Shown in pieces: positions 15,867-32,070 of a stretch of DNA of 64,000 nt. Source of the DNA: Siculibacillus lacustris (lineage in GTDB: Bacteria > Pseudomonadota > Alphaproteobacteria > Rhizobiales > Ancalomicrobiaceae). Made by a program: the position numbers and the translations under genes. The stretch covers positions 151,689 to 215,688 of the forward strand of contig NZ_SJFN01000002.1 of the NCBI RefSeq assembly GCF_004328075.1. The letters run 5' to 3'. The notes beneath the pieces were generated by a model. That model saw nothing but the letters and a program-made list of their open reading frames with translations, had not been told where the DNA came from and searched no databases. How positions within the stretch are numbered: position 1 is the first letter of the stretch; each line of letters begins with the position of its first letter.

Positions 15867-17243
15867 TCACAGGGCGGGTAGGCGCAGATCGCAACGCAGA
15901 CCGCCCTCGGGCGCGGCCGCGAGCACCAGGCTACCGCCGTAGAGCGCGGCGAGCTCCGCGACGATCGACAGGCCGAGCCCCGAGCCCGGGACCTTCTCGT
16001 CGAGGCGATGGCCGCGGGCCAGCACCGCGGCGCGCTGATCGGGATCGAGGCCGGGGCCGTCGTCGTCGACCCGGGCGAGGAGATGGCGGCGATCGTCGGC
16101 CCCGTCGGGCGGCAGCGCCCGCACCGACACGGCGACGCGGGTCGCACACCACTTGCAGGCATTGTCGAGGAGATTGCCGAGCGCCTCCTCGAGGTCCTCG
16201 CGCTCGCCGCGGAAGCGCAGGCCGGAATCGAGCGCCAGGGTGATCTCGGGGTTCTTGTCCTCGTGGATCCGGCGCATGGCGCGGATCAGCCGCTCGACCA
16301 CCGGCTCGACCTCGGTGACCACGCCGATGGTGCGCCGCTGGGCGACCATGCGGGCGCGGTCGAGGTGATGGGCGAGGTGGCTCTGGATCAGTTCGGCCTG
16401 TTCGACGACCCGGAGCGCCATCGGCTGATCGGAGGCGCGGGCCTCGTTGACGATCACCGACAGGGGCGTCTTCAGCGCATGGGCGAGGTTGCCGACATGG
16501 GTGCGGGCGCGTTCGGTGGCCTCGCGATTGGCCTCGATCAGGGCGTTGAGCTCCTGGGCGAGCGGGTCGATCTCGGCGGCGAAGCGGCCCTCCAGGCGCT
16601 CGGAACGGCCGGAGCGGATGCGCCACAGGGCCCGCCGCATGCGTTCGAGCGGCGCCAATGCGATACGCACCAGGACCAGGGTGGCGACCACCAGACCGAG
16701 GCCGACCAGCCCGAGCAGGAAGGCGGTGCGCCAGGAGAAGCGCGAAATGTCGGCTTCCAGATCGCCGGCGTTGCCGGCCACGGCGATGCGGAAGCGCTCG
16801 CGGCCGTCGAAATCGACGATCCGCTCGAGGATGCGCAGATGTTGGCGATCCGGCCCTTCGGAATAGGCGCGCAGGATGTGGTCGCGACCGGCGGTGGCGC
16901 CGAGGTCGCCGGGCAGGCGCAGGACTTCGCCGACCAGCGAGCGCGAGATTGCGGCGATGCCGTCGTCGGAGACGCGACGGACCACCCAGTACCAGCCCGA
17001 CAGCGGCAGTTCGAACCGCGCCTCGCCGGGGTTCTCGGGCTGGCGGAAGGTGCCGGCGCCGTCGGCCTGGGCGGCGAGCGCGCCGATCAGGGTCTTCAGG
17101 TGGACCGCCAGCCGCTCGTCGAAGGCGGCCTCCACCGACGAGCGATAGGCGGTGATCAGCACGAAGCCGGCGGAAGCCAGCGACAGGGCGCTCCACAGCG
17201 CGATCAGCACGAACAATCGACGAGCGAGGGAACTACCCGGCAT
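15867..17243 (-). CDS. PhoQ/FeuQ-like sensor histidine kinase
   Basis: A 458-aa membrane kinase, partner of the regulator at 17233-17904. Helices at about 9-32 and 174-194 flank a periplasmic sensor domain of about 140 residues. His255 in GNLAHALKTPLSV is the phospho-acceptor; the AHALKTP form is typical of PhoQ-like kinases. The HATPase domain has an N box NLLDNACKW and a DDGPGL loop. The start overlaps the regulator gene by 11 bases. Order and sequence resemble FeuPQ of rhizobia, which controls cyclic glucan export or iron responses; that assignment is inference. Confidence 0.92.
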   Translation of the reverse strand: MPGSSLARRLFVLIALWSALSLASAGFVLITAYRSSVEAAFDERLAVHLKTLIGALAAQADGAGTFRQPENPGEARFELPLSGWYWVVRRVSDDGIAAISRSLVGEVLRLPGDLGATAGRDHILRAYSEGPDRQHLRILERIVDFDGRERFRIAVAGNAGDLEADISRFSWRTAFLLGLVGLGLVVATLVLVRIALAPLERMRRALWRIRSGRSERLEGRFAAEIDPLAQELNALIEANREATERARTHVGNLAHALKTPLSVIVNEARASDQPMALRVVEQAELIQSHLAHHLDRARMVAQRRTIGVVTEVEPVVERLIRAMRRIHEDKNPEITLALDSGLRFRGEREDLEEALGNLLDNACKWCATRVAVSVRALPPDGADDRRHLLARVDDDGPGLDPDQRAAVLARGHRLDEKVPGSGLGLSIVAELAALYGGSLVLAAAPEGGLRCDLRLPAL

Positions 17244-17904
17244 CGGCGGTGGCGCCCACGCTGTAGCCGAGCCCCCGCACCGTCTGGATCAGGTCGACCC
17301 CGAGCTTCTTGCGCAGGCGCCCGACGAAGACCTCGATCGTGTTGGAATCGCGATCGAAGTCCTGATCGTAGAGATGTTCCACGAGCTCGGTGCGCGACAC
17401 CACCCGCCCCTGGTGGAGCATCAGATAGGCGAGCAGACGATATTCGTGGGAGGTCAGTTTGACCGTCGCCCCGGACACGGTGACGCGGCCGGCGCGGGTG
17501 TCGAGGACGACCGGGCCGACCACCATCTCGTTGGAGGCGCGGCCGGCGGCGCGGCGCACCAGGGCGCGGATTCGGGCCAGCACCTCTTCCATGTGGAAGG
17601 GCTTGGCGACGTAGTCGTCGGCGCCGGCGTCGATGCCGGCGACCTTGTCGGACCAGCGGTCGCGGGCGGTGAGGATCAGCACCGGCATGCGGCGACCGGC
17701 GCGACGCCAGGTCTCCAACACGGTGATGCCGTCCATGCCGGGCAGGCCGATGTCGAGCACCACCGCGTCATAGGGCTCGGTGTCGCCGAGGAAATGACCC
17801 TCGGTGCCGTCGACGGCGCTGTCGACGACGTAACCCGCTTCGACCAGCGCATCGACGATTTGCCGATTCAGGTTCCGATCGTCCTCGACCACCAGCAGAC
17901 GCAC
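17233..17904 (-). CDS. PhoP/FeuP-like response regulator
   Basis: OmpR-family regulator of 223 aa. The receiver domain has DD at 8-9, Asp51 (VVLDIGLPG) and Lys in AKPF. The winged helix contains HEYRLLAYLMLHQGRVVSRTE-type sequence and DRDSNTIEVFVGRLRKKL, strongly like FeuP/PhoP of Hyphomicrobiales. It is followed with an 11-base overlap by its kinase gene and preceded at 45 bases by a small PepSY-type gene, forming a three-gene operon. Confidence 0.94.
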   Translation of the reverse strand: MRLLVVEDDRNLNRQIVDALVEAGYVVDSAVDGTEGHFLGDTEPYDAVVLDIGLPGMDGITVLETWRRAGRRMPVLILTARDRWSDKVAGIDAGADDYVAKPFHMEEVLARIRALVRRAAGRASNEMVVGPVVLDTRAGRVTVSGATVKLTSHEYRLLAYLMLHQGRVVSRTELVEHLYDQDFDRDSNTIEVFVGRLRKKLGVDLIQTVRGLGYSVGATADAG

Positions 17905-17949: not shown

Positions 17950-18288
17950 TCAGCGGCCATCGTACATCATCCGTCCCGAGGTGGCATCGATCTGCAGACG
18001 GCGCACCCGGCCGCCGTGGTCGAGGACGGTGACCCGGTAGAGCAGCGTGTCGTCGGAGCGACAGAGATCGGCGCGCAGCAGGTCGCCGTCGAGATCGCGT
18101 CCGACCTCGGCGAAGCGGCGGGCGCGGCCGTCGCGGATCGCCCCTTGCGCGGCGGCGGTGCCGAGGCAGACGATCTCGGCGGGCGGGGTCAGGCTGCGAC
18201 CGCCGTTGCCGGGCGGAAGCAGAGGCTCCTCGGCCGCGACGGGCAGAGACGAGACGATCAGGGCGAGGACGGCGAGGAGACGCTTCAT
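17950..18288 (-). CDS. Small periplasmic PepSY-like protein
   Basis: A 112-aa exported protein. Residues 1-19 form a signal peptide that ends in VAA. The mature part has two cysteines and a C-terminal PepSY-type half motif (VTVLDHGGRVRRLQIDATSGRM split around a turn). ATG 18288 follows an AGGATGG site. It lies 45 bases upstream of the response regulator gene in the same operon. In Sinorhizobium the small periplasmic protein FeuN occupies the same place before feuPQ and restrains the kinase, so this protein may do the same; homology is not shown here. Confidence 0.8.
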   Translation of the reverse strand: MKRLLAVLALIVSSLPVAAEEPLLPPGNGGRSLTPPAEIVCLGTAAAQGAIRDGRARRFAEVGRDLDGDLLRADLCRSDDTLLYRVTVLDHGGRVRRLQIDATSGRMMYDGR

Positions 18289-18333: not shown

Positions 18334-18361
18334 GCGCGACGCCGGGGGGCCGGCGTCGCGC
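18334..18361 (-). terminator. Perfect 12-bp hairpin at the distal end of the GTA cluster
   Basis: Arms 18334-18345 and 18350-18361 are fully complementary with a 4-base loop. It lies 7 bases beyond the stop of the last GTA-associated gene (18368) and upstream of the PepSY operon. There is no T-run, but its position suggests that it ends GTA transcripts or protects their 3' end. Confidence 0.6.
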
Positions 18362-18367: not shown

Positions 18368-18556
18368 TCACGCGCCGGTGCGGGCGCCGCCGACCGGACC
18401 GTCGGTGAAGAAGCGCAGCACGGTGTTGGCGAGGCCGAGGCCGCCGACCACCAGACCGGCGGTCTTCGGATCGGCGACGGCGCCCCAGTCGGTCGACATC
18501 AGGGCACCGAGGACGGCGGCGACGGTGTTGAGAGCGATGGTACGATAACCCTTCAT
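18368..18556 (-). CDS. Small holin-like membrane protein
   Basis: A 62-aa protein with a good ribosome site (AGAGGT) before ATG 18556. It has two hydrophobic stretches, about residues 6-22 and 34-50, with a short loop that contains DWG, and a basic N-terminus (MKGYR). The FFTDGPVGG end resembles the RFVTTTPVG ending of small phage proteins placed next to lysis genes. It may be a holin or a membrane protein helping particle release. No endolysin gene is beside it. It is the last gene before the terminal hairpin. Confidence 0.7.
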   Translation of the reverse strand: MKGYRTIALNTVAAVLGALMSTDWGAVADPKTAGLVVGGLGLANTVLRFFTDGPVGGARTGA

Positions 18557-18673
18557 CTTGGCACCTCTTGGAGGAAAGCGCGGGTCCGCGACGCGCGGAC
18601 GGACGCGTGCGTGAGCCGCCGGCGGGCGCGAGCCCCGACCGGTGGCAGCGGGCGCCGAAGGGCGCCGTTCGGT

Positions 18674-20053
18674 TCAGGTCCCGGCCATCTCGCGCAGGAT
18701 CGCCGTGGCGCGCAGCTTGTCGCCGGCGAGCGTCGGATGGACGGAATCGGCCTGGATCAGCGACGCCACGACGGCGCCGTCGGCGCCCCAGAAGTCGCGG
18801 GCGGTGTCGATGCAGCGCACCCCGTTGCGGGCACACCACATCGGCAGCTGGGCTTGTCGGGCGAGATGGCGGACCGGGTAGTAGCCATCCGGCGACGTCG
18901 GCGCCTGGGGGTTCTGGGTCAGCGCGACGAGGTCGGCGTCGGGGTTGCGGGCTTTCGCCGCCGTCGCCCAAGCCGCGAGCTGGGCGGTCCACGAAGGGCC
19001 GACCAGGGCGCCCTCGTTGTGGCCGTCGTTGAGGACGTGGACGAGCGGCCACGCCTTGGGCACGGTCTTGGGGAAGCGCGTCGCGTCGGCGTGATAGGCG
19101 ATGTTCTTCTGGGCGGCGGAGGCGTTGTAGAGGTAGAGGGTCGGCGAGCCGACGACCGCGCAACCGTCGGTGCCGAAATAGGGCCGTGCGGTCTCGAGCG
19201 GCTTCGGCAGAAGGTCGGCGCCGGAGGCGAGGCCGTCGAGCCAGATCGCCTCGAAGATCGTGCCGTTCATGCCGCCGGATCCGGCGGCCGCCGCGGCCCC
19301 GAACGACGAACCGACCTCGACGTTCATCGTCGAGGCATAGGGTGCGGATGCCCCGGCGGTCGTCGTGGTGGCGATCTGCGCCCAGGTGGCGCCGTCGTCG
19401 AGCGACTGCGACATGGTCAGAACGCGCTGACCGGCCCCGTTGTTGACCTGATAGGCGAGCCGGAATCGGGTCGGGGCGCCATTCGCGGGCACCGTCCAGG
19501 CCCCGGCCGTCGCCGGGAAGTACTGCGAGGCGATGCCGTCCAACGAATACTCGAACATGATGGCGTTGGCGGTCGTCTTGCCGAAGCGGAGGCGCCGGCC
19601 GGACGCGGTGGGGAGGTTCCATTGCGAGAGGAACCAGCGATTGAGGGCGGCGTCGCTCCATTCGTTGAGCGCGACCTTGACCTCGAGCAGGAAGTCGCCG
19701 GCCGGACTGCCGACTTCCGTCGCCGTCCAATATCGGCCGTTGGTGGTGCCCATCGAGATCCCGCGCTCGCCGCTCGCGCCGGCCTGGGCGACGGCCCACG
19801 GGGCATGGGTCTGGGTGGCGTCGGACCACAGCCGCGACTGGATCCGCGCCCGCGGCACCAGCGGCGCGAGTTGGGTGAACAGCGACGAGAACAGGAAGCC
19901 GTAGCCCGGGGAGACGACCTCGGCCGAGGTCGAATCGCCATTGACCGCCAGCACCACGGAATTGAGGTTGCGGGCGAGCGTATCGACGATCGAGCCGAGA
20001 CCGGTGACGATCGGCCGGCGCGGCGAACCGCCGGCGAAATTTCCGTAGGTCAT
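18674..20053 (-). CDS. SGNH/GDSL hydrolase, tail-associated
   Basis: A 459-aa protein with the SGNH hydrolase blocks: GDST with Ser41, an Asn in NDGHNE near residue 347, and DSVHP with Asp436 and His439. Between block I and the rest is an inserted beta-rich region of about 250 residues resembling phage tail lectin or spike domains. The start lies 4 bases after the stop of the upstream gene at 20058. Next to a fibre gene, the likely role is de-esterification of a surface polysaccharide during GTA attachment; this is inferred from context. Confidence 0.82.
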   Translation of the reverse strand: MTYGNFAGGSPRRPIVTGLGSIVDTLARNLNSVVLAVNGDSTSAEVVSPGYGFLFSSLFTQLAPLVPRARIQSRLWSDATQTHAPWAVAQAGASGERGISMGTTNGRYWTATEVGSPAGDFLLEVKVALNEWSDAALNRWFLSQWNLPTASGRRLRFGKTTANAIMFEYSLDGIASQYFPATAGAWTVPANGAPTRFRLAYQVNNGAGQRVLTMSQSLDDGATWAQIATTTTAGASAPYASTMNVEVGSSFGAAAAAGSGGMNGTIFEAIWLDGLASGADLLPKPLETARPYFGTDGCAVVGSPTLYLYNASAAQKNIAYHADATRFPKTVPKAWPLVHVLNDGHNEGALVGPSWTAQLAAWATAAKARNPDADLVALTQNPQAPTSPDGYYPVRHLARQAQLPMWCARNGVRCIDTARDFWGADGAVVASLIQADSVHPTLAGDKLRATAILREMAGT

Positions 20054-20057
20054 GGGC

Positions 20058-20396
20058 TCACTCCGTCAACAGGATGACTTCGACCGTGCCGGCGGCGAGA
20101 CCGGCGGCGAGGCCGGTCGAGCCGGTCGACCAGATGCGGCGCACGGCGATCGCCTCGTAGCCGACGACGCCGGCCGGCACGGAGAGGGGAACGGCGCCGG
20201 CGAGGCCGTCGTCGGCGTTCTTGATCGGCGTCACCAGGAGCGTGATCTTGCCGCCGGTGCCGTTCCAGACACGCAGCGCCTTGGCGCAGACCGGCAGGTC
20301 GACGGTGTCGGAAAGCGCGAGGGTGGTGAGCGTCGTGGCCTCGACCGCCGGCGTCTCGCGGGTCGGCGACGTCGACCCGAAACGATCTTCCGTCAT
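20058..20396 (-). CDS. Small tail-module protein of unknown function
   Basis: A 112-aa protein starting at ATG 20396, with GGAGGA 7 bases upstream. It is rich in Val, Thr and Ala, predicted to be mainly beta strand, and has no signal peptide. The pattern CAKALRVWNGTGG...ITLLVTP and a C-terminal GTVEVILLTE look like small phage proteins that accompany tail fibres. No family is recognised. It sits between the fibre and the SGNH hydrolase genes. Confidence 0.7.
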   Translation of the reverse strand: MTEDRFGSTSPTRETPAVEATTLTTLALSDTVDLPVCAKALRVWNGTGGKITLLVTPIKNADDGLAGAVPLSVPAGVVGYEAIAVRRIWSTGSTGLAAGLAAGTVEVILLTE

Positions 20397-20524
20397 GCTG
20401 ATGTCCTCCGGACAGGGGGGCTCGCGTGCGCGGCCCGCGGGATCTTCCCACCCGATTTCGGGGATCGGCGTCGCCTCGGGCGGCAGGGGCGGCGACGTCG
20501 GGGCGGCATCGACCGCCCGGCGCG

Positions 20525-21976
20525 TCAACTCGGTCTGGCGTCGCGCGGGCGATCCGCCGCGGCGGCGGCTTCCAGCGCCCGCACCCGCGCCCGCAGCGCG
20601 CGGAGCTCGGCCCACAGCACCGGGATCAGCTGATCCGGCCGCAGCCACTGGCGGCTCTGCGGATCGGCCTTGTCGTCGAGGCCCCAGGCGCCGAACTCGA
20701 CGTCGAGGGCGTCCATCGCCGCCTTGAGGTCCTGGGCGCGGAAGCCGGCATGCAGGCGGACGCCCGGACGCGGTACGTCGCGATGGGTCGGAGCGAGGAT
20801 CGGCGAGCCGTCGTCGTTGCGACCGATCGGCGCTTCACCGGTCTCGACCACGTCGATGCCGCCGATCCGCCAGCGGAACAGGATCGGATCGACGGCGTCG
20901 ATCAGATTTCCGGCGATCGCACCGAGACCGCCGACGATGATCTTGTCGCGGGCGTCCGAGGTGTTGATGGTGCCGTTGGCAGCGTAGATGGTCGCCCAGC
21001 GCAGGGCGGCGGTGCCGAGGGTCAGGCTGTTGTCGACATCGGGGGCGGTGGTGCCGCCCAACGCGATCGGCGTCGCCGCGGTGCGCCAGGAGCGCAGGCC
21101 GACGGCGCCGCCATAGGGCTGGAACATCCAGTTGCCCTTGACATTGGCCTGATCGGCGACCTCGACGAGGAAGGTGTTGTAGGCCTGCTGGGCGAAGACC
21201 ACGCGGGTCGCCTGCGACCCGTCGGCGTTGTTCCAGACGTTGAAACGGGCCGTCTGCGCGTAGGCGGTGTTGCCGGCGGGATTGTCGACGGTCAACCAGT
21301 CGGTCGGGGTGCCGCGGCCGAAGGCGCATTTGCCGGTCGCCCGGTCGATGGTCAGCGCGCTCCGCCAGACCGATCCGTCGCTCGACACCTTGACGTGGAG
21401 ATCGTCGTCGCCGGCGAGCCCGATCTCGGCGCGACCGGAAAAGGCGTCCTGGAACAGCAGCGAGGCGGTGCGGGCGGCGGCGTCCTTGGAGAGGACGAAG
21501 CGCAGATCGCCGCTGCCGCCGCTCGCCGTCGGCTCGGCCTCGAACAGGGCGGCGGGGGCGCGCACGTGCAGGCGGTTGACCGCATCGGGGGTGGTGCCGA
21601 TGCCGACGCCGGCGAGGTTGCCGAAGGTCGCGACCAACTCGTGGGTCGGCACCCAGGTGGTGCCGGTCCACACCACCGCGCGGTGTTCGTCGGCGACCCA
21701 CAGCTGCCAGCCGAGGGCCGGCACGAGGAAGTCCCAGGCGCCGCCGTCCCAGACCGCGACGGCGCCGACGCGGCCGGCCCAGGCGCCGGTCGGCGACGAC
21801 CCGACGATCCAGGCGGCGCCGTCGTCGGGGGCGGCGGGCGGCGTGCCGGAGCCGCGCCCGGCGACCACCGGCTGGACCAGGGCGTCGAGGCGGCGCAGTG
21901 TCTCGTTGTGGGTGACGTGTTTCTGGGCCTGGGCCGCTTCGATGACGGGCAGGCCGAGACGCGGGGTGGTCGACAT
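20525..21976 (-). CDS. DUF2793 tail fibre with C-terminal S74 intramolecular chaperone
   Basis: A 483-aa fibre-like protein. Residues 1-110 are a DUF2793 domain, opening with LPVIEAAQAQKHVTHNE and an aromatic AVWDGGAWDFLVP stretch. The middle is beta-rich. From about residue 350 comes a peptidase S74-type chaperone marked by NTSDARDK, which trims itself after trimer assembly, then a C-terminal coiled-coil-like helix (ALRARVRALEAA). ATG 21976 follows a GGAG site. In phages this architecture is a receptor-binding fibre, so it probably sets which cells the GTA particle can dock to. Confidence 0.85.
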   Translation of the reverse strand: MSTTPRLGLPVIEAAQAQKHVTHNETLRRLDALVQPVVAGRGSGTPPAAPDDGAAWIVGSSPTGAWAGRVGAVAVWDGGAWDFLVPALGWQLWVADEHRAVVWTGTTWVPTHELVATFGNLAGVGIGTTPDAVNRLHVRAPAALFEAEPTASGGSGDLRFVLSKDAAARTASLLFQDAFSGRAEIGLAGDDDLHVKVSSDGSVWRSALTIDRATGKCAFGRGTPTDWLTVDNPAGNTAYAQTARFNVWNNADGSQATRVVFAQQAYNTFLVEVADQANVKGNWMFQPYGGAVGLRSWRTAATPIALGGTTAPDVDNSLTLGTAALRWATIYAANGTINTSDARDKIIVGGLGAIAGNLIDAVDPILFRWRIGGIDVVETGEAPIGRNDDGSPILAPTHRDVPRPGVRLHAGFRAQDLKAAMDALDVEFGAWGLDDKADPQSRQWLRPDQLIPVLWAELRALRARVRALEAAAAADRPRDARPS

Positions 21977-22044
21977 GGCATCGAACTCCGGCGGCGACCG
22001 GCGAGGCCGGCGCGGGGTGGCGGGCAAGCGAGGCGGGAGGCCGC

Positions 22045-25000
22045 TCAGAGGCGCAGGGCGCGGCGGGCGGGAATGCCGGGGCCGAGGCTCGCGGCGCACT
22101 GGGCGACGCTGACCACGACGTCGGCGAGATCGGCACCGAGCGCGGCGTCGCGATCGGCGCGGGTCCAGGTCCAGGTCGGTGTGGCGACGTCGACGCGGCG
22201 CAGGACGGTTCCGGCGCGGGCGATCTCCAGCCGGTAGGCTTCCGGCGGATCGACCTCGGGCACTTCCTCGAGGACCCAGGAATCGGCGGCGGCGGCGCGG
22301 CTGCGGCGCACCCAGGCGAACACCAGATCGCCGCCGGTCGCCGCTCCGGTCACCCCGAGATGGGCCGGGCTCCACGGCTTCAGCCCGCGGGCCTGCGGCG
22401 TGACCCGGAGCTCGATGGTGCCGGACGCGGTGTAGTCGCGATCGGCGGCGCCGATGCGGAGCGTGATCTCGCGGCCGACGTCGTCGGGGCGGGTCGGCAG
22501 CAGGGCGAGCGCCGCGTCGAGGACCACGAAGGCGGCCCCGGCGGGGATCGACGCGATCCCGTCCCAGGCGTCGTCCGAGCCGCCCTGACGACGCAGCAGA
22601 TCGCCGAGGCGCCAGGTCGCCGGGCCGATCAGCTCGGCGGCGGCGTATTGCAGGATCTCCCAGGCGCCATTGGGTGAGCGCACAGCGGCGCGGCCGGCGC
22701 CGTCGAGGACGGCGGCGCGGCCGGACGACGCCAGCGTGCCGCCGGCGAGGCGGACGTCGAGGATCGTGGCGCGATCCCACAGGGCGGTCGGGCCGGGGGC
22801 GAGATCGGTCACGGTCTCGCCCAGGGTCGCCGGACGGTCGAGGGCGGCGACGAGGTCGTAGCCGCCGTCGGCGAGCCGGCGCCACACCGCGAGGGACCCC
22901 GGCCAGGGTGCGGCGAAGGCGGCGAGATAGGGTCGGTGGGCATTCGCATCGGCGTCGGCATGGGGGATGTCGAGGACATGGACGACCGGGTCGGCGCGGG
23001 CGATCGGCAACTCGCCGCCGCGCCGGCGGGTCACCGCGCGGACCGGGCCGTAGAGCTCGGGATCGAGGCTGCGGGCCTCGACGGCGCGGTGGGCGCCGTC
23101 GGTCAGGCTCTCGATCAGCAGCCGCTCGGTGCGGTCGGCGACGACGAGATCGACGACGTCTCCGGGCTCCAGCGCGATGCGGGTCGGGTCGAGGGCGAAG
23201 CGGCCGACGGTGCGGCTCGCCCACAGGTCGGCGAGCCAGGCGTCGGCGACCCCGACCATCGCCTCGATCGGCGCGACCACCGCCAGATCGGCGTCGGAGG
23301 TGCGATGGGCCGCGCCGGCGAGGCGGCGCGAGGTGACGGTGGTGCGGCGATGGTCGAGCAGCGCATCGGAGAAGGTCACCGCGACCTCGTGCGGCAGTTC
23401 GGATTCCTGCCCGCGGCGCAGTTCGACGAGATGGGTCGCACCGGTGTCGACGAGATCGTCGACGGTCAGGGTCATGACCGGGCGGCGGGCCCGACCGGCG
23501 AAGCGGATCGCCGTGCCGGAGTCGACGGCGTCGATGCCGAAGGCGGCGAGCAGCGGCTCCAGCGCCTCGCGCGCCGACATCCGGCGATCGATGTAGACAC
23601 CGTCGAGATGGCCGGCCACGGCCCGAAAGGCGACGTCGGCAAAGCCGTGATCGGCGAGGATCGCGCCGATCGCCGCCTCGAGCGAGCAACCGCCGAGGCG
23701 ACCGTTGAGCCAATGGCCGGTGGCCCAGGATGCCCCGTCCGACCACACGTCGAGGGCGGTCGGAAAGGCCGGGAAGGGCCGCGCGTCCCAGGTCCACAGA
23801 TGAATGCCGTCGAGATCGACCATCGGCCCGCCGTAGACCGGTGAGAGCGGATTGGCGGCGGGGTCGCGGGCCGGGTCCCAGGCGTCGATCACCGCCTCGA
23901 GGGTGCGGCGCTGCTGCAGATCGTCGCGGCTCCCGATCGAGAACCACGGCACGCCGCCCTCCGAAGAGCGCGGATCGGGGAAGACGTTGGGCTGATCGGC
24001 GCCGAGATCGACCGCCGGGCAGCCGAGTTCGGTCAGCCAGATCGGCTTGGCGCCGGGCACCCAGGCGGTGGGCGTGGGGCGTTCGACGCCGCCGACCCGG
24101 TCGAAATGGCGGTTCTCCCACCAGCTGCGCAGGTCCTTGGCGCGCCACACCCAGGGCTTGGCCGTGGCGCCGTCGGCGATCGGCGTGCGAACTTGGGCGC
24201 GGCGGGCGGCGTCGCTCGCATAGTACCAGTCCCAGTCCTCGCCGCCGGTCACGCCGGCGCGCAGATAGGCGAGATCGGTCGGCAGATCGGCGATCGCCCG
24301 GTCGAGATGGGGGCCGGGCCGCCAGTCGGCGAGCGGGGCGTAGAAGTCGATGCCGACGACGTCGACCGCCGGGCTCGCCCACAGCGGATCGAGGTGGAAG
24401 GTCAGATCGCCCGAGCCGTCGGCCGGACGGTGGCCGTTCCATTCGCTCCAGTCGGCGCCATAGGTGAGGCGGGTCGAAGGTCCGAGCACGGCGCGGACGT
24501 CGGCGGCGAGCGCCACCAGGGCGGCGACGTGGGGGTGACCGCCGGCGGCGTCGCGCACGGCGTTGAGCGCCACCCATTCCGAGCCGAGCAGGAAGGCGTC
24601 GACGCCGCCGGCGGCGAGCGCCAGATGGGCGTGGTGGAGGATCATGCGGCGCAGCGACCACTCCGCCGGACCGGTATAGACCACCGCCCCGTCGGCGACC
24701 GCGAAGTCGGCGGGCCGGGCGGTGCCGACGAAGGCGGCGATCTGGGCTGTGGCAGTGGCGCTGCGGTCGACGGTGCCGACCCGGCCCGGCGCCGGGTCGC
24801 AGGTGATGCGGCCGCGCCAGGGGAAGGCGGCCTGCTCGGCGCCGCCCCAGGGATCGGAGAGGCCGTTGCCGGCCGGAACATCCATCGACACGAAGGGATA
24901 GAGCAGGACCTCGAGGCCGCGGCCGCGGATCTCGCGGATCGCCTCGATCACACTGGCGTCTGCCGGGGTGCCGCCGAAGGCGGCGCGGCCGTCGATCTGC

Positions 25001-25932
25001 GTCACTTCCCGCGCCTCGGCGCGGGTCAGACCGGCCACCGACCAGACGAGCGGCGCGGTGGTCTTGTCGGCGGCGTCGACCCCGGGGCGCAGGCGACAAT
25101 GGCCGGCGCGCAGGTCGTCGCCGAACCAGGTCACCACCAGAGCGATGCGGCGCAGGTTGGGACAGAGCTCGCAGAGTTCGTCGAGAGAGGCGAGGAAATC
25201 GGTGGCGGCGGCGACGGTGTGGCGGTTCTCGCTCGCCGCGGCGCCGATCCCGGTGGTGCGGGTGACCGGGGTGGTGGCATAGCCGAACTCGGTGCCGCCG
25301 GGGATCATGGTGACGGCGCGGACCCGCGCTTCGAGCGTGTCGACGACGCGGATCACCTCGAAGGTCAGTTGCGGAATGCGGTTGCCCCAGGGCTCGAGCG
25401 GCAGGCGCTCGAACACCACATAGGCGAGGCCGCGATAGGCCGGCACTTCGCCGCCCTGGCGAGCGAGGATCAGCGGATCGGGCGCCTGGGTCTCGGTTCC
25501 GGGGTAGACGCGCCAGGTGATCGCGGTCAGATCGAGGGCGGTGCCGTCGGCCCACACCCGCGAGATCCGGGCGATCGGGCCCTCGCACAGGCCGACCGCG
25601 AAATTGGCGTAGTAGCGATAGCTGCGGGTCGAGACGCCGCCCTTGCCGCCCGACGACGAGCGCACCACGGTCTCCTCGTGGCGGGTCGCCCAGATCACCT
25701 GACCGGCGATGCGGACGCGGCCGTAGACGCGGGGAATCGGTTCGCCCTCGGTGGAGCTCTGGACGTCGAGATCGGAAAGCCGCGGGCCGGTCACCGACAT
25801 CGTCGAGCGGATCAGCGTGCGGTCGATCACCGCGCCGGCGACGCCGCCCAGCGCCTGACCGATCGCGGCACCGACGCCACCGAGCGCGCCGCCGAGGGCG
25901 CTACCGGCGGCGGCGAGAAGCAGGGTGGCCAT
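22045..25932 (-). CDS. GTA baseplate megatron protein (RcGTA g15), TIM-barrel
   Basis: The largest protein in the window (1295 aa), matching RcGTA gp15, which forms the tail tip and penetrates the recipient envelope. The N-terminus (1-38) is a Gly/Ala hydrophobic stretch with a membrane-insertion look. A phage-tail domain follows. The GTA TIM-barrel domain spans about 400-730 with aromatic and acidic motifs such as YGADWSEWNG, VVGIDFYAPL and PIWLTELGCPAVD. A phage-tail_3-type domain lies at about 790-950, and a beta-rich C-terminal part ends at ARRALRL. The start is 7 bases from the g14 stop. Confidence 0.95.
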   Translation of the reverse strand: MATLLLAAAGSALGGALGGVGAAIGQALGGVAGAVIDRTLIRSTMSVTGPRLSDLDVQSSTEGEPIPRVYGRVRIAGQVIWATRHEETVVRSSSGGKGGVSTRSYRYYANFAVGLCEGPIARISRVWADGTALDLTAITWRVYPGTETQAPDPLILARQGGEVPAYRGLAYVVFERLPLEPWGNRIPQLTFEVIRVVDTLEARVRAVTMIPGGTEFGYATTPVTRTTGIGAAASENRHTVAAATDFLASLDELCELCPNLRRIALVVTWFGDDLRAGHCRLRPGVDAADKTTAPLVWSVAGLTRAEAREVTQIDGRAAFGGTPADASVIEAIREIRGRGLEVLLYPFVSMDVPAGNGLSDPWGGAEQAAFPWRGRITCDPAPGRVGTVDRSATATAQIAAFVGTARPADFAVADGAVVYTGPAEWSLRRMILHHAHLALAAGGVDAFLLGSEWVALNAVRDAAGGHPHVAALVALAADVRAVLGPSTRLTYGADWSEWNGHRPADGSGDLTFHLDPLWASPAVDVVGIDFYAPLADWRPGPHLDRAIADLPTDLAYLRAGVTGGEDWDWYYASDAARRAQVRTPIADGATAKPWVWRAKDLRSWWENRHFDRVGGVERPTPTAWVPGAKPIWLTELGCPAVDLGADQPNVFPDPRSSEGGVPWFSIGSRDDLQQRRTLEAVIDAWDPARDPAANPLSPVYGGPMVDLDGIHLWTWDARPFPAFPTALDVWSDGASWATGHWLNGRLGGCSLEAAIGAILADHGFADVAFRAVAGHLDGVYIDRRMSAREALEPLLAAFGIDAVDSGTAIRFAGRARRPVMTLTVDDLVDTGATHLVELRRGQESELPHEVAVTFSDALLDHRRTTVTSRRLAGAAHRTSDADLAVVAPIEAMVGVADAWLADLWASRTVGRFALDPTRIALEPGDVVDLVVADRTERLLIESLTDGAHRAVEARSLDPELYGPVRAVTRRRGGELPIARADPVVHVLDIPHADADANAHRPYLAAFAAPWPGSLAVWRRLADGGYDLVAALDRPATLGETVTDLAPGPTALWDRATILDVRLAGGTLASSGRAAVLDGAGRAAVRSPNGAWEILQYAAAELIGPATWRLGDLLRRQGGSDDAWDGIASIPAGAAFVVLDAALALLPTRPDDVGREITLRIGAADRDYTASGTIELRVTPQARGLKPWSPAHLGVTGAATGGDLVFAWVRRSRAAAADSWVLEEVPEVDPPEAYRLEIARAGTVLRRVDVATPTWTWTRADRDAALGADLADVVVSVAQCAASLGPGIPARRALRL

Positions 25933-25938: not shown

Positions 25939-26430
25939 TCACTCCGAAGCGGGGGCGCCGGTGTCCCCCGGCGCGAGGCCGGGGAAGGCGAAGGCGGCGG
26001 CGAGGCGGCGGCGCCACCAGGGGCCGAGCGGGCTCTCGACCACCGCGGCACCGTCATAGGCGTGGACGAAGCGGTCGGGGGCGCCGAGGATGCCGGCGTG
26101 TTTGGCCGGCAGGTCGGGGCGCCAGCGGAACAGCAGGACGTCGCCGGGCAGAATCGCGGCGAGCGGTACCGCCACGAGATGGCGGCGGCCGGCGTCGATC
26201 AGCCGTTCGGCGCGCGAGGCCTCGGCCCAGTCGGGGCCGTAGGCTTCGACCGCTTCGGGCTCGGCGCCGTAGAATTCGCGCCACAGGCCGCGGACGAGGC
26301 CGAGGCAGTCGCAGCCGACGCCTTCGAGGGAAGCCTGATGGACATAGGGCGTGCCGATCCAGCGGCGCGCCGCGGCGACGATGCGGGCGCGGTCGAAGGG
26401 CGCAGCGAGAGGACGCGGGGACTCGGTCAC
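25939..26430 (-). CDS. NlpC/P60 cell-wall peptidase (RcGTA g14)
   Basis: A 163-aa tail peptidase that opens peptidoglycan for DNA entry. The catalytic Cys lies in GCDCLGLVRG and the catalytic His in KHAGIL, with FVHAY further on. It starts at GTG 26430, overlapping the g13 stop as GTGA, so translation is coupled. There is no signal peptide, as expected for a particle component. The gene is directly upstream of g15. Confidence 0.93.
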   Translation of the reverse strand: MTESPRPLAAPFDRARIVAAARRWIGTPYVHQASLEGVGCDCLGLVRGLWREFYGAEPEAVEAYGPDWAEASRAERLIDAGRRHLVAVPLAAILPGDVLLFRWRPDLPAKHAGILGAPDRFVHAYDGAAVVESPLGPWWRRRLAAAFAFPGLAPGDTGAPASE

Positions 26431-27305
26431 GGCACCAGCGCTCCGCCATCGGTGATCATGCCGGCGTCCGGCGAGGCCACCAGGAAGTCGTTGCCGGGAA
26501 TATGGGGAAAGCCGCGGAAGGCGCGGGCGTTGGAAAAGCGGTCGCGGCAGGTCTCGAAGCGCTTGTCGCAGCCCTCCGACACGGTGACGGCGTCGCCGAC
26601 GGCGAGCGCCGCGCTCGGCGTCTGCCACAGTTCCAGCGTCACCTCGCCCGCGTCGACCCGGTGGACCTTGACCTCCACCGCCAGACCGGCACAGGCGCCG
26701 GAGGCGACGCGCAGCAGGCCGCGATCGAGGGCGCCTTCGGCCACGCCGGCAAGCCCGGCGACGGCGATGCGGCGGCGATCGATGACGCGCGTGACGGTGC
26801 CGGCGCGGGCGATCGGCGCGACGCCGCAACGGGCGTCGCCGAGGTCGGCGTCGCAGCGGTGCTGGAACAGGCGGCCGCCGGTCTCGTCGAGGCGATGGGC
26901 GAGCGAGCGGATCTCGGCGCGGAAGGCGCCGTCGAGACGGGTGATCTCGCCGAGGCTGCCGCGGCGCAGGCGCAGGCGCCGGCTCGGATCGCTCCAGTCG
27001 ACGAGATCGATCTCGACCGCGGCGGCGTCGAACAGGCCCGCCTCGATGTCGGTGGCGGTGAGGGTCGGCGACGACAGGGCGCCGTCGACCTCGAGGCCGC
27101 CGACCGACAGATCGGCGCGGGCCACGGCTTCCGACGCGGTGAAGCCGGTCGCCGCCTCGTGGGTGACGCCTCCGAAAACCAGCGGACGGTCGTGATCGGT
27201 GAAGCCGAGGACGCGGCCGTCGGCGAGGATCAGGCGCCAGCAGGTGGCGAGCGTGGTGACGCCGCCGGCGAGGGTGGCGGCGAGCTCGGGCGCGACGGTC
27301 TTCAC
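26427..27305 (-). CDS. Baseplate hub protein, DUF2163 (RcGTA g13)
   Basis: A 292-aa hub protein at the junction of tail tube and tail tip. The DUF2163/BR0599 domain carries four conserved cysteines arranged as two pairs: HRCDADLGDARCGV in the middle and GCDKRFETC near the end. In RcGTA the hub is reported to bind an iron-sulfur cluster; these residues are the likely ligands. The C-terminal FRGFPHIPGNDFL is a family signature. The start overlaps the g12 stop as ATGA. Confidence 0.93.
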   Translation of the reverse strand: MKTVAPELAATLAGGVTTLATCWRLILADGRVLGFTDHDRPLVFGGVTHEAATGFTASEAVARADLSVGGLEVDGALSSPTLTATDIEAGLFDAAAVEIDLVDWSDPSRRLRLRRGSLGEITRLDGAFRAEIRSLAHRLDETGGRLFQHRCDADLGDARCGVAPIARAGTVTRVIDRRRIAVAGLAGVAEGALDRGLLRVASGACAGLAVEVKVHRVDAGEVTLELWQTPSAALAVGDAVTVSEGCDKRFETCRDRFSNARAFRGFPHIPGNDFLVASPDAGMITDGGALVP

Positions 27306-27952
27306 GGGCGGATCTCCACCAGCGGAATGGACGGAATCTCGCCGGCCAGGAAGGCGGCGAGGTCGACGCGAATCTCGTCGGTGTCGAAACGCACCGGCAC
27401 CAGGAACTCGAAACCGGCGGTGATCGCCACGCCGGCCGGCGGCACCGCGGCACCGGCGAAAGTCACCAGGCCGCCGATCGCCGCGACCGCGAAATCGATG
27501 CCGGCGCGCCGCTCGACGCCGGCGACCGCGACCCGCACCGAGGCGGCGAGCGGTCGCTCGATCGCCCGGCTCCAGGCGCGGGCGCCGTCACCGTAGCGCT
27601 TGGCGAGCGCGAAGGCCGTGGTGACGCCGTCGCCGGTGCCGAGCGGCTGGTCGAGCGGCGTCGGCGCGCGCGACGGCGGGCCGGAGCGATGGTCGACCGG
27701 ATCGCGGTAGAGGAAGCCGTGGAGACGGCCGCGCCGGGCTTCGAAGAAGGCGAGAACGGCGTGGAGATCGTCGAGCGAGCGCAGGCCCGAGCCGGCGTCG
27801 TAGCGCCGGCGGCTGTCGGCCCAGCGCGCGTTGCGGACCTCGCGGCCGGAGCCGAGGGCGACGATCTCGGTGCGCCGTTCCGGTCCGCCGGCGGCGCGCA
27901 GGGCGACGTCGAGGGGGAAGATCACCTCGTCGAAAACGGGGGTTCCGGTCAT
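27302..27952 (-). CDS. Distal tail protein, DUF2460 (RcGTA g12)
   Basis: A 216-aa protein that caps the tail tube and joins it to the hub. DUF2460 signatures are FDEVIFPLDVALRAAGGPE at the N-terminus, RYDAGSG in the middle, LHGFLYRDPVDH and the C-terminal FEFLVPVRFDTD. ATG 27952 is preceded by GAGGT. Upstream, the cluster is broken by a gene on the other strand (28038-28295), so g12 to g15 are not directly joined to g11. Confidence 0.93.
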   Translation of the reverse strand: MTGTPVFDEVIFPLDVALRAAGGPERRTEIVALGSGREVRNARWADSRRRYDAGSGLRSLDDLHAVLAFFEARRGRLHGFLYRDPVDHRSGPPSRAPTPLDQPLGTGDGVTTAFALAKRYGDGARAWSRAIERPLAASVRVAVAGVERRAGIDFAVAAIGGLVTFAGAAVPPAGVAITAGFEFLVPVRFDTDEIRVDLAAFLAGEIPSIPLVEIRP

Positions 27953-28037
27953 CGTCACGAACCTCACACACTTTGATCTTCCGCAAGGACGATCACCCAC
28001 GGTCCGGGTAACGATCGGGTCACGGAGGAAGAGACAA

Positions 28038-28295
28038 ATGATGAGCCTTTCTTCACATGACCTTGTCGAAGAGTTCCCGGGCCAGGCCGAGCAAATTCGG
28101 GACCTGGCCGCTGCGGATCTACATTTCTCGAACGCCGTCGCCGCTTACACGGAGGTCAACCGAGAGGTTCTCCGGATCGAGAGCGAGATGGAACCTGCGT
28201 CCGACGAGTATTTGGAAACGCTCAAGAAGAAACGGCTGCGGCACCTGGACGAGATCCACGAGAAGCTGCTGCGGCAGAGGCACACCGGAACCTGA
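28038..28295 (+). CDS. DUF465 (YdcH-like) protein inserted in the GTA cluster
   Basis: An 85-aa protein on the strand opposite to all GTA genes, in the 366-bp g11-g12 gap. It is a helical hairpin: HFSNAVAAYTEVNREVLRIE and TLKKKRLRHLDEIHEKLLRQ match the DUF465 pattern of small antiparallel coiled coils. A strong GGAGGA site lies 8 bases before ATG 28038. Its codon use is less GC-rich than that of the neighbours. DUF465 proteins have no established function. This is probably a later insertion with its own promoter in 27953-28037. Confidence 0.8.
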   Translation: MMSLSSHDLVEEFPGQAEQIRDLAAADLHFSNAVAAYTEVNREVLRIESEMEPASDEYLETLKKKRLRHLDEIHEKLLRQRHTGT

Positions 28296-28318
28296 GCCCC
28301 TCCTCGTTGGGTCCGGTG

Positions 28319-28912
28319 TCAGAGCCCGCGCCGTCCCCGTCCGACGGCGCGGGCCAACATCCCGGTCACCTGTGCTTCGGCCCGGCGGAAGCTCGCCGCG
28401 TCCGGCGTGGTGACGTTGAAGGTGACGTTGGCGCCGGCGCCGTTGCCCTGGGTGGCGATGCCGAGGCGTCCATCGGCGCCACGAGCGAGCGGTAGGATCG
28501 CCTCCGGGCCGGCCTCGCCGAGGAGCCCGGTGCGCCCGCCGGTCATCGGGAAATAGGTCGGAGTCGCGACCACGCCGCCACTGGCGAAGGGCACAACGCC
28601 GCCGCCGGCGAAGACGCCGCCGCGGGCGAAGCCGAGGGCCGAGCCGAGACTCTTCAACAGCGATCCGGTCCCGCTGGCGATCAGGCTGGTCAGCGGCGAC
28701 AGCGCCGTGTCGAGGGCCTTGCTCGACAGCCGCTCGGCGATGCCGCGCAGCACCACGTCGAGGGCCTTGCCCTGGACCGCCGCGCCCTTGAAGGCGGCGG
28801 TGAGCGAGCGACCGAAGCTCTTGGAGAGACCGTCGAGGCTGCCGAGCGAGACGGCGAGCGACTGCGTGGTGTCGGTGGCGGCGGTGACGTCGCCGCTCTC
28901 GGCGTCGGCCAT
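28319..28912 (-). CDS. Tail tape measure protein (RcGTA g11)
   Basis: A 197-aa protein, short as expected for the small GTA tail, which sets tail length. The N-terminal half is amphipathic helix (SLAVSLGSLDGLSKSFG). A Gly-rich segment FARGGVFAGGGVVPFASGG and GLLGEAGPEAILPLARG are hallmarks of phage tape measure C-termini. GGAGGT lies 5 bases before ATG 28912. A terminator and an unrelated gene separate it from g10.1. Confidence 0.9.
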   Translation of the reverse strand: MADAESGDVTAATDTTQSLAVSLGSLDGLSKSFGRSLTAAFKGAAVQGKALDVVLRGIAERLSSKALDTALSPLTSLIASGTGSLLKSLGSALGFARGGVFAGGGVVPFASGGVVATPTYFPMTGGRTGLLGEAGPEAILPLARGADGRLGIATQGNGAGANVTFNVTTPDAASFRRAEAQVTGMLARAVGRGRRGL

Positions 28913-28963
28913 GGCGGACCTCCGGTCGGACGAGTGAACCCGAATGGTGCAGGGACACAGAAA

Positions 28964-28995
28964 GAGCGCGGCTCGACCTCGATCGAACCGCGCTC
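28964..28995 (-). terminator. Intrinsic terminator inside the GTA cluster
   Basis: Arms 28964-28976 and 28983-28995 pair at 12 of 13 positions, with a 6-base loop. Read on the minus strand the GC-rich stem is followed directly by TTTCT, so this is the best intrinsic terminator in the region. It ends the DUF4440 gene but also stands between GTA genes g1-g10.1 and g11-g15. Confidence 0.75.
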
Positions 28996-29028
28996 CGGAC
29001 TCCGGCGAGACGCCGTCCCGCGAACCGC

Positions 29029-29490
29029 TCAGACCTTGAGCGGCGTCGACTGACGGGCGAGCAGCTTCCAGGCGCCCTTGTCGAGCTTCCACACCTGCAG
29101 CACGCGGATGTGGGCGGTGCTGGTCTTGCCCTCGGGCAGGTTGTTGACCGAATCGAAGGTGTGGCGGACCAGCGCGTTGTCGCCGACCACGTCGACGATC
29201 TGGTCGGACAGCGCCAGGGACTTGAAGGAATTGGTCCCGTCGAGGCTCTTCAGGAACGACTCCTTGGTGTCGAGGTGGCCGTCGGAATGGACGTAGACGA
29301 GTTGGTCGAACACCAGCGCGGCGAGCGCCTTGCCGTCGCCGGCGACCATCGCGACGCGCAGCGCTTCGACGGCGGCGGCCACGGCGGCGGCGTCGTCGGC
29401 CGCGACGGCCGGGGCGGCGAAGGCGGTGGCGACGAGCGCGGCACCGACCGTCGCCAGGGCGGCGCGGCGGGTCTGTACGATCCGGGTCAT
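29029..29490 (-). CDS. Secreted DUF4440/SnoaL-like protein inserted in the GTA cluster
   Basis: A 153-aa protein with a cleavable, Ala-rich signal peptide (1-30, ending AVAA). The mature part has the NTF2-like cone fold pattern of DUF4440: AAVEALRVAMVAGDGKALAALV, then HTFDSVNN and RVLQVWKLDKGAWKLLARQSTP, split by strands. Function in the periplasm is unknown. ATG 29490 has an AGGAT site. It does not belong to known GTA gene sets and separates g10.1 from g11, where RcGTA genes are contiguous. It has its own terminator at 28964-28995 and an AT-richer upstream region at about 29590-29670. Confidence 0.85.
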   Translation of the reverse strand: MTRIVQTRRAALATVGAALVATAFAAPAVAADDAAAVAAAVEALRVAMVAGDGKALAALVFDQLVYVHSDGHLDTKESFLKSLDGTNSFKSLALSDQIVDVVGDNALVRHTFDSVNNLPEGKTSTAHIRVLQVWKLDKGAWKLLARQSTPLKV

Positions 29491-29677
29491 GATTGCGATC
29501 CTCGTGTGTTTCGATCGGCGGCACGCCCTGGAGGGCTGCGATTGATCGGCGCCGATCTCTCCCCTGTCGGCGGACATCGCCGACGAGGCTCTTATACGGG
29601 ATCGCCGGTGGCCTGACCAGATCCTGGTATGGTACGAAATGCCATTTTGACGCTGGGTCATGCGAATTCGCATGTCG

Positions 29678-29839
29678 TCAGGCCGGCGGATCGGGGAAAC
29701 GACGCATCAGCCGCTCGAAAGCCCCACGATCGGTGGCCGCAGTACCCGGGGCCGGCCCGAGGGCCGCGGCGATTTCACGCGGGGTCAGGGCCCAGAAGGC
29801 GGCCGGCGCCAGGCCCCAGCGGGTGAAGGCGAGGCGCAT
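29678..29839 (-). CDS. Tail assembly protein (RcGTA g10.1, TIGR02216 type)
   Basis: A 53-aa protein whose MRLAFTRWGLAPAAFWALTP resembles the very short TIGR02216 phage family, probably a tail assembly chaperone partner of g10. ATG 29839 overlaps the g10 stop by one base (TGATG). The frame upstream of the ATG codes for AFPWDDL, and family members usually have FPW before MRL, so translation may begin slightly upstream at a non-ATG codon or by a shift from g10. The end is Phe-Pro-Asp-Pro-Pro. Confidence 0.75.
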   Translation of the reverse strand: MRLAFTRWGLAPAAFWALTPREIAAALGPAPGTAATDRGAFERLMRRFPDPPA

Positions 29840-30243
29840 CAGATCGTCCCAGGGGAAGGCGCCGGGCCCCCCGAGACGGCCGGAGGGACGGCCCCGCCCT
29901 CCCCTCGGTCGATCGGCGGATCGGCCGGTTGGGGATCGCGGCCGAAGGTCGCGGCGAGGAGCTCGCCGACCACCGCGGCGGCGCCGAGCAGGCCGCCGTC
30001 GATCGGCAGCGCCGCGACCTCGGCGTCGGAGATCGCCGTGCCACCGCCGCGCAGGCCGCAGGCGAGCACCCGCAGGATGTCGCGCGCCGACAGCCGCCCC
30101 GAGGCGAAGCGCGCCGCGAGGGCCGCGAGATCGTCGACGCCGAAGGCCGTTTCGAGTTCGCACAGTGCGCCGAGGGTCAGGCACAGGACGACCGGACGGC
30201 CGTCGACGAGCGCCTCGACCTCGCCGCGACGACGATTGGCCAT
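29839..30243 (-). CDS. GTA gp10 tail assembly chaperone family protein
   Basis: A 134-aa protein. The N-terminal half fits the GTA gp10 family: MANRRRGEVEALVDGRPVVL, LCELETAFGV and ARDILRVLACGLRGGG. The C-terminal 40 residues are a Pro/Gly-rich tail. GGAGGA is 6 bases upstream of ATG 30243. It follows the tail tube gene g9 at 28 bases, the position of tail assembly chaperones in phages. Confidence 0.88.
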   Translation of the reverse strand: MANRRRGEVEALVDGRPVVLCLTLGALCELETAFGVDDLAALAARFASGRLSARDILRVLACGLRGGGTAISDAEVAALPIDGGLLGAAAVVGELLAATFGRDPQPADPPIDRGEGGAVPPAVSGGPAPSPGTI

Positions 30244-30271
30244 GGGAGGATCCTCCGATGAGAGGGCGGGA

Positions 30272-30685
30272 TCAGTGGGCGGTGAAGACCAGGGCGCCGG
30301 CCGATTCGAGGGTCAGCTCGAAGGTCATCTCGCCGTCGTGGTCGCCGGCGAATTCGAGCGCGGTGATCTGGAACGGCCCTTGGACGGTGCCGAAGTCGGG
30401 CAGCACCACCTGCCAGTCGCGCGCGGCACCGGCGAAGAAGGTGCCGCGGACGCTGGCGTCGGAAGCCGCGTCGCGGAACACGCCGGCGCCGGAGACATGG
30501 GCGCGGCGCACGCCGGCGCCGGCCAGGAGCTCGCGCCAGCGGTCGGGGCTGTCGGCGGTGGTGACGTCGACGGTGTCGGAGGAGAAGGCGAGGCGGCGGG
30601 CGCGCAGGCCGGCGACGGTGACGAAGCTGCCGGCACCGGTGTCGTCGAGTTTCAGCAAGAGGTCCTTGCCGCGTTGGATGGCCAT
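30272..30685 (-). CDS. Major tail (tube) protein, TP901-1 type (RcGTA g9)
   Basis: A 137-aa tail tube subunit. The family pattern is clear: MAIQRGKDLLLKLDD at the start, TVAGLRARRLAFSSDTVDVT, then WRELLAGAGVRRAHVSGAGVF and a C-terminal beta domain with GPFQITALEFAGDHDGE. It would polymerise around the tape measure. It is 13 bases downstream of g8. Confidence 0.93.
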   Translation of the reverse strand: MAIQRGKDLLLKLDDTGAGSFVTVAGLRARRLAFSSDTVDVTTADSPDRWRELLAGAGVRRAHVSGAGVFRDAASDASVRGTFFAGAARDWQVVLPDFGTVQGPFQITALEFAGDHDGEMTFELTLESAGALVFTAH

Positions 30686-30698
30686 GGCGGGCTCCCGG

Positions 30699-31118
30699 TC
30701 AGGGGTCGGTTGCGAGCGGTTCGGTGAGGGCGACGAAGCGCAGCAGCACCTCGGCGGTGGTGCGGTCCTTGAGCAGCCGGCTCTCCAGGCCCTCGCGGGC
30801 GAGGCCGACCAGCCGGTGGCCGGCGAGGCTCAGGCCGGGCGCCAACAGTGCGCGTTCGACCGCGGCGGCGAGGCCGGAGGCTTCGCCGCGCCCGCCGGCC
30901 CGCGACAGGATCCGCAGCGTCAGACGATGCTCGTCCAGTGGCGCGTCGAGACCGGAGCGGTCGCGGCTGGTGATCGCGTCGACCACCAGATGGGGAAAGG
31001 CGGCGTCGCGGGGTGGGGCGTCGAAGACGCGGCCGGCGAGCGGCGGCGCGGCGAGGCCAGCGTCGGCGCGCAGGCGGGCGAGGATCACCGTCAGGAGAGC
31101 ATGGGCCGCGGTGGTCAC
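30699..31118 (-). CDS. Tail terminator, DUF3168 (RcGTA g8)
   Basis: A 139-aa protein that forms the ring closing the head-proximal end of the tail. DUF3168 features: an early LLTVILARLRADAGLAA, FDAPPRDAAFPHLVVD, and LTLRILSRAGGRGEA followed by a helix. It starts at GTG 31118, overlapping the g7 stop (GTGA), with GGAGGAG just upstream. Confidence 0.9.
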   Translation of the reverse strand: MTTAAHALLTVILARLRADAGLAAPPLAGRVFDAPPRDAAFPHLVVDAITSRDRSGLDAPLDEHRLTLRILSRAGGRGEASGLAAAVERALLAPGLSLAGHRLVGLAREGLESRLLKDRTTAEVLLRFVALTEPLATDP

Positions 31119-32010: not shown

Positions 32011-32033
32011 GGGAGCTCTCGGGTCGGGAGGGG

Positions 32034-32070
32034 GCGGCCCGGTGGCGGGGGAGGCGCGCCACCGGGCCGC
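32034..32070 (-). terminator. 13-bp hairpin between capsid and connector genes
   Basis: Arms 32034-32046 and 32058-32070 are perfectly complementary, with an 11-base loop. No T-run follows. Phage genomes often place such a hairpin after the capsid gene to stabilise its message or reduce downstream transcription, so that capsid exceeds connector. Confidence 0.6.

Follow-up and report, generated by a model that had tools for sequence, protein, structure and literature searches.

In a 64,000-nucleotide stretch of the Siculibacillus lacustris genome (the window; contig NZ_SJFN01000002.1, positions 151,689 to 215,688), the minus strand carries a cluster that is, by its g15 gene, a gene transfer agent (GTA) of the Rhodobacter capsulatus type (RcGTA). 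Our main finding concerns the four genes that lie behind g15. We consider it likely, with a probability of about 70%, that these are adsorption and release genes of this GTA itself, kept inside its head–tail cluster, with a predicted SGNH hydrolase in the place of the head-spike fiber (Rcc01080 in R. capsulatus). The parts are those of an ordinary GTA, compactly arranged; the one unusual feature is a swap, and similar swaps are seen at other loci. A first-pass annotation, made from the sequence alone, had seen here a receptor-binding and release module added to a domesticated particle. The tie to the GTA held up, since the genome (G000) has a single match each for megatron (g15), DUF2793, and the spike base, every one of them at the GTA locus, and since related genera share this arrangement, but the genes are not additions because they have RcGTA counterparts and DUF2793 commonly lies behind g15 in the order.

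Head-spike base and its SGNH neighbor

The 112-amino acid (aa) gene product is a divergent homolog of the RcGTA head-spike base Rcc01079, and the gene that follows it does not encode an anchored spike fiber. A profile built from the window protein and eight relatives found the solved Rcc01079 at an E value of 4e-10. Two of the relatives, which are 62 and 63% identical to the window protein, exceed the NF048002 cut-off, with 32.2 bits in L005 (the same protein as in L066) and 33.1 bits in L067 (L numbers denote loci, and G numbers denote genomes). The structural model reached a predicted local distance difference test score (pLDDT) of 82.5 and retrieved 6tb9, the RcGTA spike base, first in Foldseek (E 4.8e-3, which is not strong alone), while in a fold comparison the spike bases 8cjz (Z 8.4) and 6tb9 (Z 8.0) came out ahead of the next best structure (6.0). 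Plain phmmer with the spike base against the PDB produced chance matches to NS3 only, and a phage search with it gave no match. The initial view of this gene as a small tail-type protein was rejected because its best profile and fold matches in the PDB are head-spike bases. For RcGTA head spikes, a base pentamer and an anchor peptide are reported in part of PMC7296036.

The SGNH gene starts 4 bases past the spike-base stop, and a head-spike fiber occupies this same spot in L066, L067, and L070. In Pinisolibacter aquiterrae B13 (L066) and the Hyphomicrobiales metagenome-assembled genome MS_R2_11 (L067), the two closest relatives that we found, the gene behind the spike base matches the curated GTA_spike_fiber family (E 1.3e-16 and 2.3e-32, respectively), and its product starts with MLGLALGVGV or MFGLGLSL. 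Next come an ~110-aa gene, the same holin-like gene, and a trio of genes for a PepSY-like protein, a response regulator, and a kinase (the L066 trio was read in L005, which is from the same genome), and L070 has the whole set plus a GH108 endolysin. Behind g15, these sister loci therefore resemble the window in the order DUF2793, spike base, fiber, holin, PepSY, response regulator, and kinase, but they differ from it in having an anchored GTA_spike_fiber, the ~110-aa gene, and a DUF2793 tip that is glycine rich and not S74. No GTA_spike_fiber domain (NF048003) was found in the SGNH protein, nor in the window genome at E 0.001. The computed comparison shows that, relative to the sister loci, the predicted SGNH gene replaced the usual head-spike fiber, which departs from its first description as an added hydrolase. 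The small gene behind the head fiber, encoding ~103 to 120 aa (L005, 3425-3778; L067, 11610-11921; L070, 7637-7999), matches phrog_18574 in L067 (E 1e-7) and is absent in the window; its loss may have accompanied that of the former fiber.

Profile and motif computations show an SGNH fold and triad as predicted features of the 459-aa protein. Its SGNH-type residues are Ser41 in GDS and Asp436 and His439 in DSVHP, exactly as had been proposed from the sequence. An alignment of 428 columns pairs the protein, at 31% identity, with the C-terminal part of the Arthrobacter phage Shoya tail fiber; the first ~198 residues of that fiber, probably an attachment part, have no counterpart in the window protein. 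Across the window, Shoya, and Casserole proteins, residues G39, D40, S41, H345, N346, D436, and H439 are invariant, as is HNE at 345 to 347, a candidate for block III, while the block II Gly could not be placed. A profile of these three proteins has the GDSL lipase 3p94 as its best PDB match (3.6e-6), followed mostly by acylhydrolases, and the Shoya fiber by itself gave no match against the PDB. By eye, residues ~130 to 280 resemble a lectin-type insert, and no signal peptide is seen at the start of the protein.

Esterase-type genes beside other spike bases

At least three other GTA-type loci independently have predicted esterase-type genes beside their spike bases. Two of them, L068 and L071, came from a scan of viral contigs with the spike-base pair. 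L068 has a spike base followed by a second spike-base domain, an SGNH protein (PF13472, 7.8e-13), and holin-like and PepSY-like genes. When the scan was done with the L071 SGNH protein, seven contigs including that of L071 were found. In each of the seven, genes for a 95-aa spike base, a GDSL protein, and an acyltransferase-3-type protein stand one after another ahead of the portal gene; family scans covered L071 and, for the GDSL protein, L077 as well. L072 is the contig of L071 under a second label. The third case is L055 (1126-2544, minus strand), where a fiber sitting behind a spike base, the megatron end, and DUF2793 combines an MLGLGLN anchor with a SASA acetylesterase (1.4e-20) and a lectin-like domain. 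In addition, a protein of Paracoccus phage Pben1 carries MLIGLGIGIGF and, after it, GHS and DGLH motifs; it has no Pfam match. The window SGNH protein has no similarity to those of L068 or L071 by BLAST or phmmer, so these look like independent recruitments.

Some details of these loci are worth recording. In L068, the second spike-base domain (760-1551) is the C terminus of a 264-aa protein that adjoins the stand-alone spike base. In the GTA-type clusters L071 to L078, the spike base, GDSL hydrolase, and acyltransferase-3 lie between terminase and portal, which places acylating and deacylating types next to each other. Two unrelated GTA-linked SGNH proteins (L065, L092 context) have their nearest phage relatives in Actinobacteria phages, of Arthrobacter in one case and of Gordonia and Curtobacterium in the other. 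We found no paper linking GTAs to SGNH enzymes in the literature searched.

These loci raise the wider idea, which we put at somewhat under even odds, that the capsid spikes of GTAs have repeatedly become enzymes: in several alphaproteobacterial lineages, acetylesterases would have replaced the flexible sugar-binding head-spike fiber or been fused to it. If true, the particle head would deacetylate the recipient capsule, and the host-range part of a domesticated and probably vertically kept particle would evolve by phage-like domain swapping within a fixed slot.

The slot behind g15 and its host border

Next to g15, the N terminus of the 483-aa protein matches a chain of 8gtc that is of DUF2793 type (E 6e-19); we take 8gtc to be from phage R4C. 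The first-pass annotation had called this protein a DUF2793 fiber with an S74 chaperone. The DUF2793 part stands, whereas the S74 domain in the window protein alone scores 14.7 bits, below the Pfam cut-off of 22; a cleavage-type motif, NTSDARDK, is nevertheless present at residue 338, and the C-terminal half matches relatives, among which L007, L017, and L020 exceed the S74 cut-off. When the first 115 residues of 36 DUF2793 proteins were compared, all 630 pairs matched; beyond residue 230, in the 30 longer proteins, only 30 of 435 pairs did. The tips include S74 chaperones (L007, L017, and L020) and glycine-rich domains (L066 and L067). This contrast points to a constant N-terminal DUF2793 adapter with a putative receptor-binding tip that is exchanged, within one fixed chromosomal slot. 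DUF2793 is also the family name applied to the RcGTA tail fiber, as reported in part of PMC10883770. A tRNA-Ser called by ARAGORN at 21456-21524 (plus strand) was rejected as a false positive because its position is within the DUF2793 gene, on the antisense strand.

How common this arrangement is was read from 121 sampled genomes of the order, of which 95 have a megatron and 85 have DUF2793. Of the 84 genomes having both, 50 have a DUF2793 gene no more than 1.4 kb behind the megatron and on its strand, a count that is a lower bound because of contig breaks and omits 6 of the 95 megatron genomes, where the match stops short of the C terminus. The comparison of gene order behind g15 that the first-pass annotation had recommended thus found DUF2793 adjacency to be common, and its statement that RcGTA-like clusters normally end with g15 fails in this order and was rejected on that count. 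At E 0.05, a spike base was detected in 23 of the 121 genomes (17 above the cut-off); it lies inside the slot behind g15 in eight of the 23, from five families (G000, G002, G026, G027, G045, G077, G085, and G120), and elsewhere in the others. In G064 and G116, a second megatron gene is present, and both copies are followed by DUF2793; G100 and G118 have further megatron pieces. Two GTA or prophage clusters are possibly present in one genome in G064 and G116, and possibly also in G100 and G118.

Between DUF2793 and the PepSY/response regulator/kinase trio, slot content is variable and often includes lysozyme or CHAP genes plus a holin. Ten proteins picked by eye from 99 listed slot proteins comprised three phage lysozymes, four CHAP proteins, one GH108, one weak GH19, and one without a match; a cell-wall hydrolase match at E 0.001 was seen in 9/10, with L024 (GH19), L006, and L037 (CHAP) below the Pfam cut-off. 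Genes in these loci were called with a simple GC-position caller, which gave none for L027 and L028, and L038 is a 1.1-kb contig end. The trio itself (15867-18288, minus strand, in the window) follows the slot in many of the order's genomes. It resembles FeuN-FeuP-FeuQ, and it may mark an ancestral GTA site.

The last gene of the slot encodes a 62-aa protein that had been called holin-like. Its hydrophobicity is moderate (hydropathy peaks of 1.18 and 1.37, the latter being the best 19-residue mean), and it has no match in Pfam, NCBIfam, or other family scans; the name is based on homologs in L008 (4.5e-5) and L010 (5e-9) that sit directly behind phage lysozyme genes. A further homolog is found in L005 (8.6e-31). 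It is doubtful that the module is complete, as had been supposed, since no endolysin is seen in the window slot and no phage lysozyme (PF00959) was found in the window genome, in a search whose positive controls matched; a PF05838 search of the genome also gave nothing, but its controls were silent too, so it is uninformative. The Caulobacter GTA is likewise described without recognized lysis genes in part of PMC9632790. The hairpin behind the holin-like gene is possibly the end of the GTA transcript; it has neither a T run nor a terminator-like consensus site, and consensus scans for promoters and terminators found none.

Upstream of the slot, NCBIfam and other family scans matched the head–tail set from portal through g15, on one strand and in RcGTA order. 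The g11 match, at 172 bits, falls short of the 220-bit cut-off, and g2 is our assumption, named from its Walker A motif only. The four open reading frames behind g15 have, as had been noted, a common strand and a coding-like character, with coding-type base composition or clear homologs. Between g10 and g11 lies a gene for an exported DUF4440/SnoaL-like protein (29029-29490, minus strand; E 1.9e-14); in L067, g10 adjoins g11 without such a gene.

Table 1. Features of the GTA cluster, the slot behind g15, and the adjoining host genes (window coordinates).
Feature	Position	Strand	Evidence
GTA head–tail genes g2 to g14	25939..36990	-	Portal, prohead protease, HK97 capsid, and g6-g14 matches
g15, baseplate "megatron"	22045..25932	-	NCBIfam GTA_megatron NF048004, 1700 bits vs. 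cut-off 800
Rcc00171-type tail fiber, DUF2793 adapter plus S74-like C-terminal chaperone, 483 aa	20525..21976	-	PF10983, E 7e-30
Head-spike base, Rcc01079 type, divergent, 112 aa	20058..20396	-	NF048002, E 5.8e-6
Predicted SGNH hydrolase in head-spike-fiber position, 459 aa	18674..20053	-	Likeness to Shoya tail fiber, GDSL profile match
Holin-like protein, 62 aa	18368..18556	-	Homologs in L005, L010, L008
Strong hairpin just 3' of holin stop	18334..18361	-	z -3.44, 0/200 shuffles
Small exported PepSY-like gene, first of conserved host trio	17950..18288	-	Kept behind slot in related loci
OmpR-type response regulator, trio	17233..17904	-	Response regulator in 29/40 fetched loci
Sensor kinase, trio	15867..17243	-	Kinase at this place in sister loci

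Proposed mechanism, alternatives, and known systems

We propose that the four genes would be expressed together with the GTA and that their products would be present in or act with its particles as follows. The DUF2793 protein would be the tail fiber: the conserved first ~115 residues would dock on the baseplate, and the distal half, formed with the help of an S74-like chaperone, would be exchangeable. The 112-aa head-spike base would sit as pentamers on the capsid vertices and hold the SGNH protein, the successor to the head-spike fiber. Probably an acetylesterase, the SGNH protein would bind and deacetylate recipient capsule or exopolysaccharide; this binding would be the first reversible contact, after which the tail fiber would dock. 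The 62-aa protein would aid producer lysis, the endolysin being supplied by another locus. RcGTA head spikes and tail fibers are reported to bind capsule (PMC10218006, in part), and SGNH phage receptor-binding proteins are reported to be active acetyl esterases (PMC13123978, in part). Recipient choice by GTAs outside Rhodobacter has been little described. Should head spikes carry acetylesterases, the host range of a GTA could be read from the slot.

Several points weigh against this proposal. By itself, the spike base scores 26.5 bits and misses the NF048002 cut-off of 28 by 1.5 bits, and several of its relatives in phages carry a tail-fiber annotation. The SGNH protein alone has no match in Pfam or NCBIfam, and its single-sequence AlphaFold model failed (pLDDT 32). 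It is a rare variant, with no relatives at E 0.001 in 15 family or 289 class genomes, and none was confirmed in scans of viral and genome contigs. Its N terminus, MTYGNFAGGSPRRPIVTGLGS, is without the alternating hydrophobic-glycine (Gly-Leu) anchor peptide, and the same is true of L071-type SGNH proteins, so capsid attachment of the SGNH protein is something that we infer. The anchor motif occurs within the first 25 residues in 13 of the 20 entered spike-base followers, a set that includes the window, L071/L077, and four phages, vs. 4/299 other locus genes; the count becomes 13/25 when the followers in L052 and L060 to L063, all without the motif, are added, and there is no usable close follower in L045, L048, L049, L056, and L058.

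The SGNH protein might instead work off the capsid, either bound to the tail fiber or as an enzyme that is produced along with the GTA but is secreted or only loosely attached, like the detachable tailspike TspA. The missing anchor peptide would suit such a location, as would the fact that the nearest relative is a tail fiber whose probable attachment part of ~198 residues is missing here, and TspA is reported to detach from RcGTA particles (PMC13420450, in part). We nevertheless judge it unlikely, given that the gene follows the spike base exactly where L066, L067, and L070 keep their head-spike fiber and that spike base and SGNH pairs recur. Quite improbable, in our estimate, is the option that the SGNH gene is host cargo for surface-polysaccharide editing, lodged in a tolerant slot. 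L071-type loci do pair SGNH with acyltransferase-3, as in polysaccharide O-acetylation, and the exported DUF4440 gene is also inside the window GTA cluster, but the homology is to phage tail-fiber tips with a lectin-like insert and not to cellular enzymes, and the protein has no visible signal peptide.

It is very improbable that the genes behind g15 are what remains of another prophage beside the GTA, one of the outcomes that the first-pass annotation had named as fatal to its view. The likeness of the SGNH protein to phage tail fibers and the variation of slot content between genera would be expected of a remnant, but in many genomes the slot has conserved g15 on one side and a conserved host trio on the other. 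DUF2793 is found within 1.4 kb of the megatron in the 50/84 genomes mentioned above, 29 of the 40 fetched loci have a response regulator at the end of the slot, L066 and L067 keep holin and spike base in the same order, and the three larger genes have a coding-type GC content at third codon positions (GC3) of at least 0.9.

In R. capsulatus, the corresponding genes are reported in part of PMC8601537 as separate loci: rcc00171, rcc00555-556 (endolysin and holin), and rcc01079-1080 (head spikes). The window shares with these satellite loci a DUF2793 tail fiber, a spike base, a protein in the head-fiber position, and a holin, and the GTA is of the same type by g15. It differs in having all of them in one slot behind g15, a predicted SGNH protein without an anchor instead of the head fiber, and no endolysin seen in that slot. 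With phage receptor-binding proteins of the SGNH type (G7C gp63.1, Klebsiella prophage fibers, and Shoya gp25), the window shares a predicted SGNH esterase domain as fiber tip; however, the phage fibers are annotated or reported on tails, whereas the window SGNH protein adjoins a head-spike base and its N-terminal attachment part is missing. TspA, the detachable RcGTA tailspike, resembles the window SGNH protein as a GTA-linked enzyme that would act on extracellular polysaccharide, and it is reported, in part of PMC13420450, to be conserved in Rhodobacterales and lacking in other megatron-encoding Alphaproteobacteria. Finally, in Methylobacterium nodulans, prophage-linked clusters are reported to have rcc00171 and rcc00555 homologs beside their head–tail genes (PMC11409702, in part), so adsorption and lysis genes adjoining such a cluster are already known.

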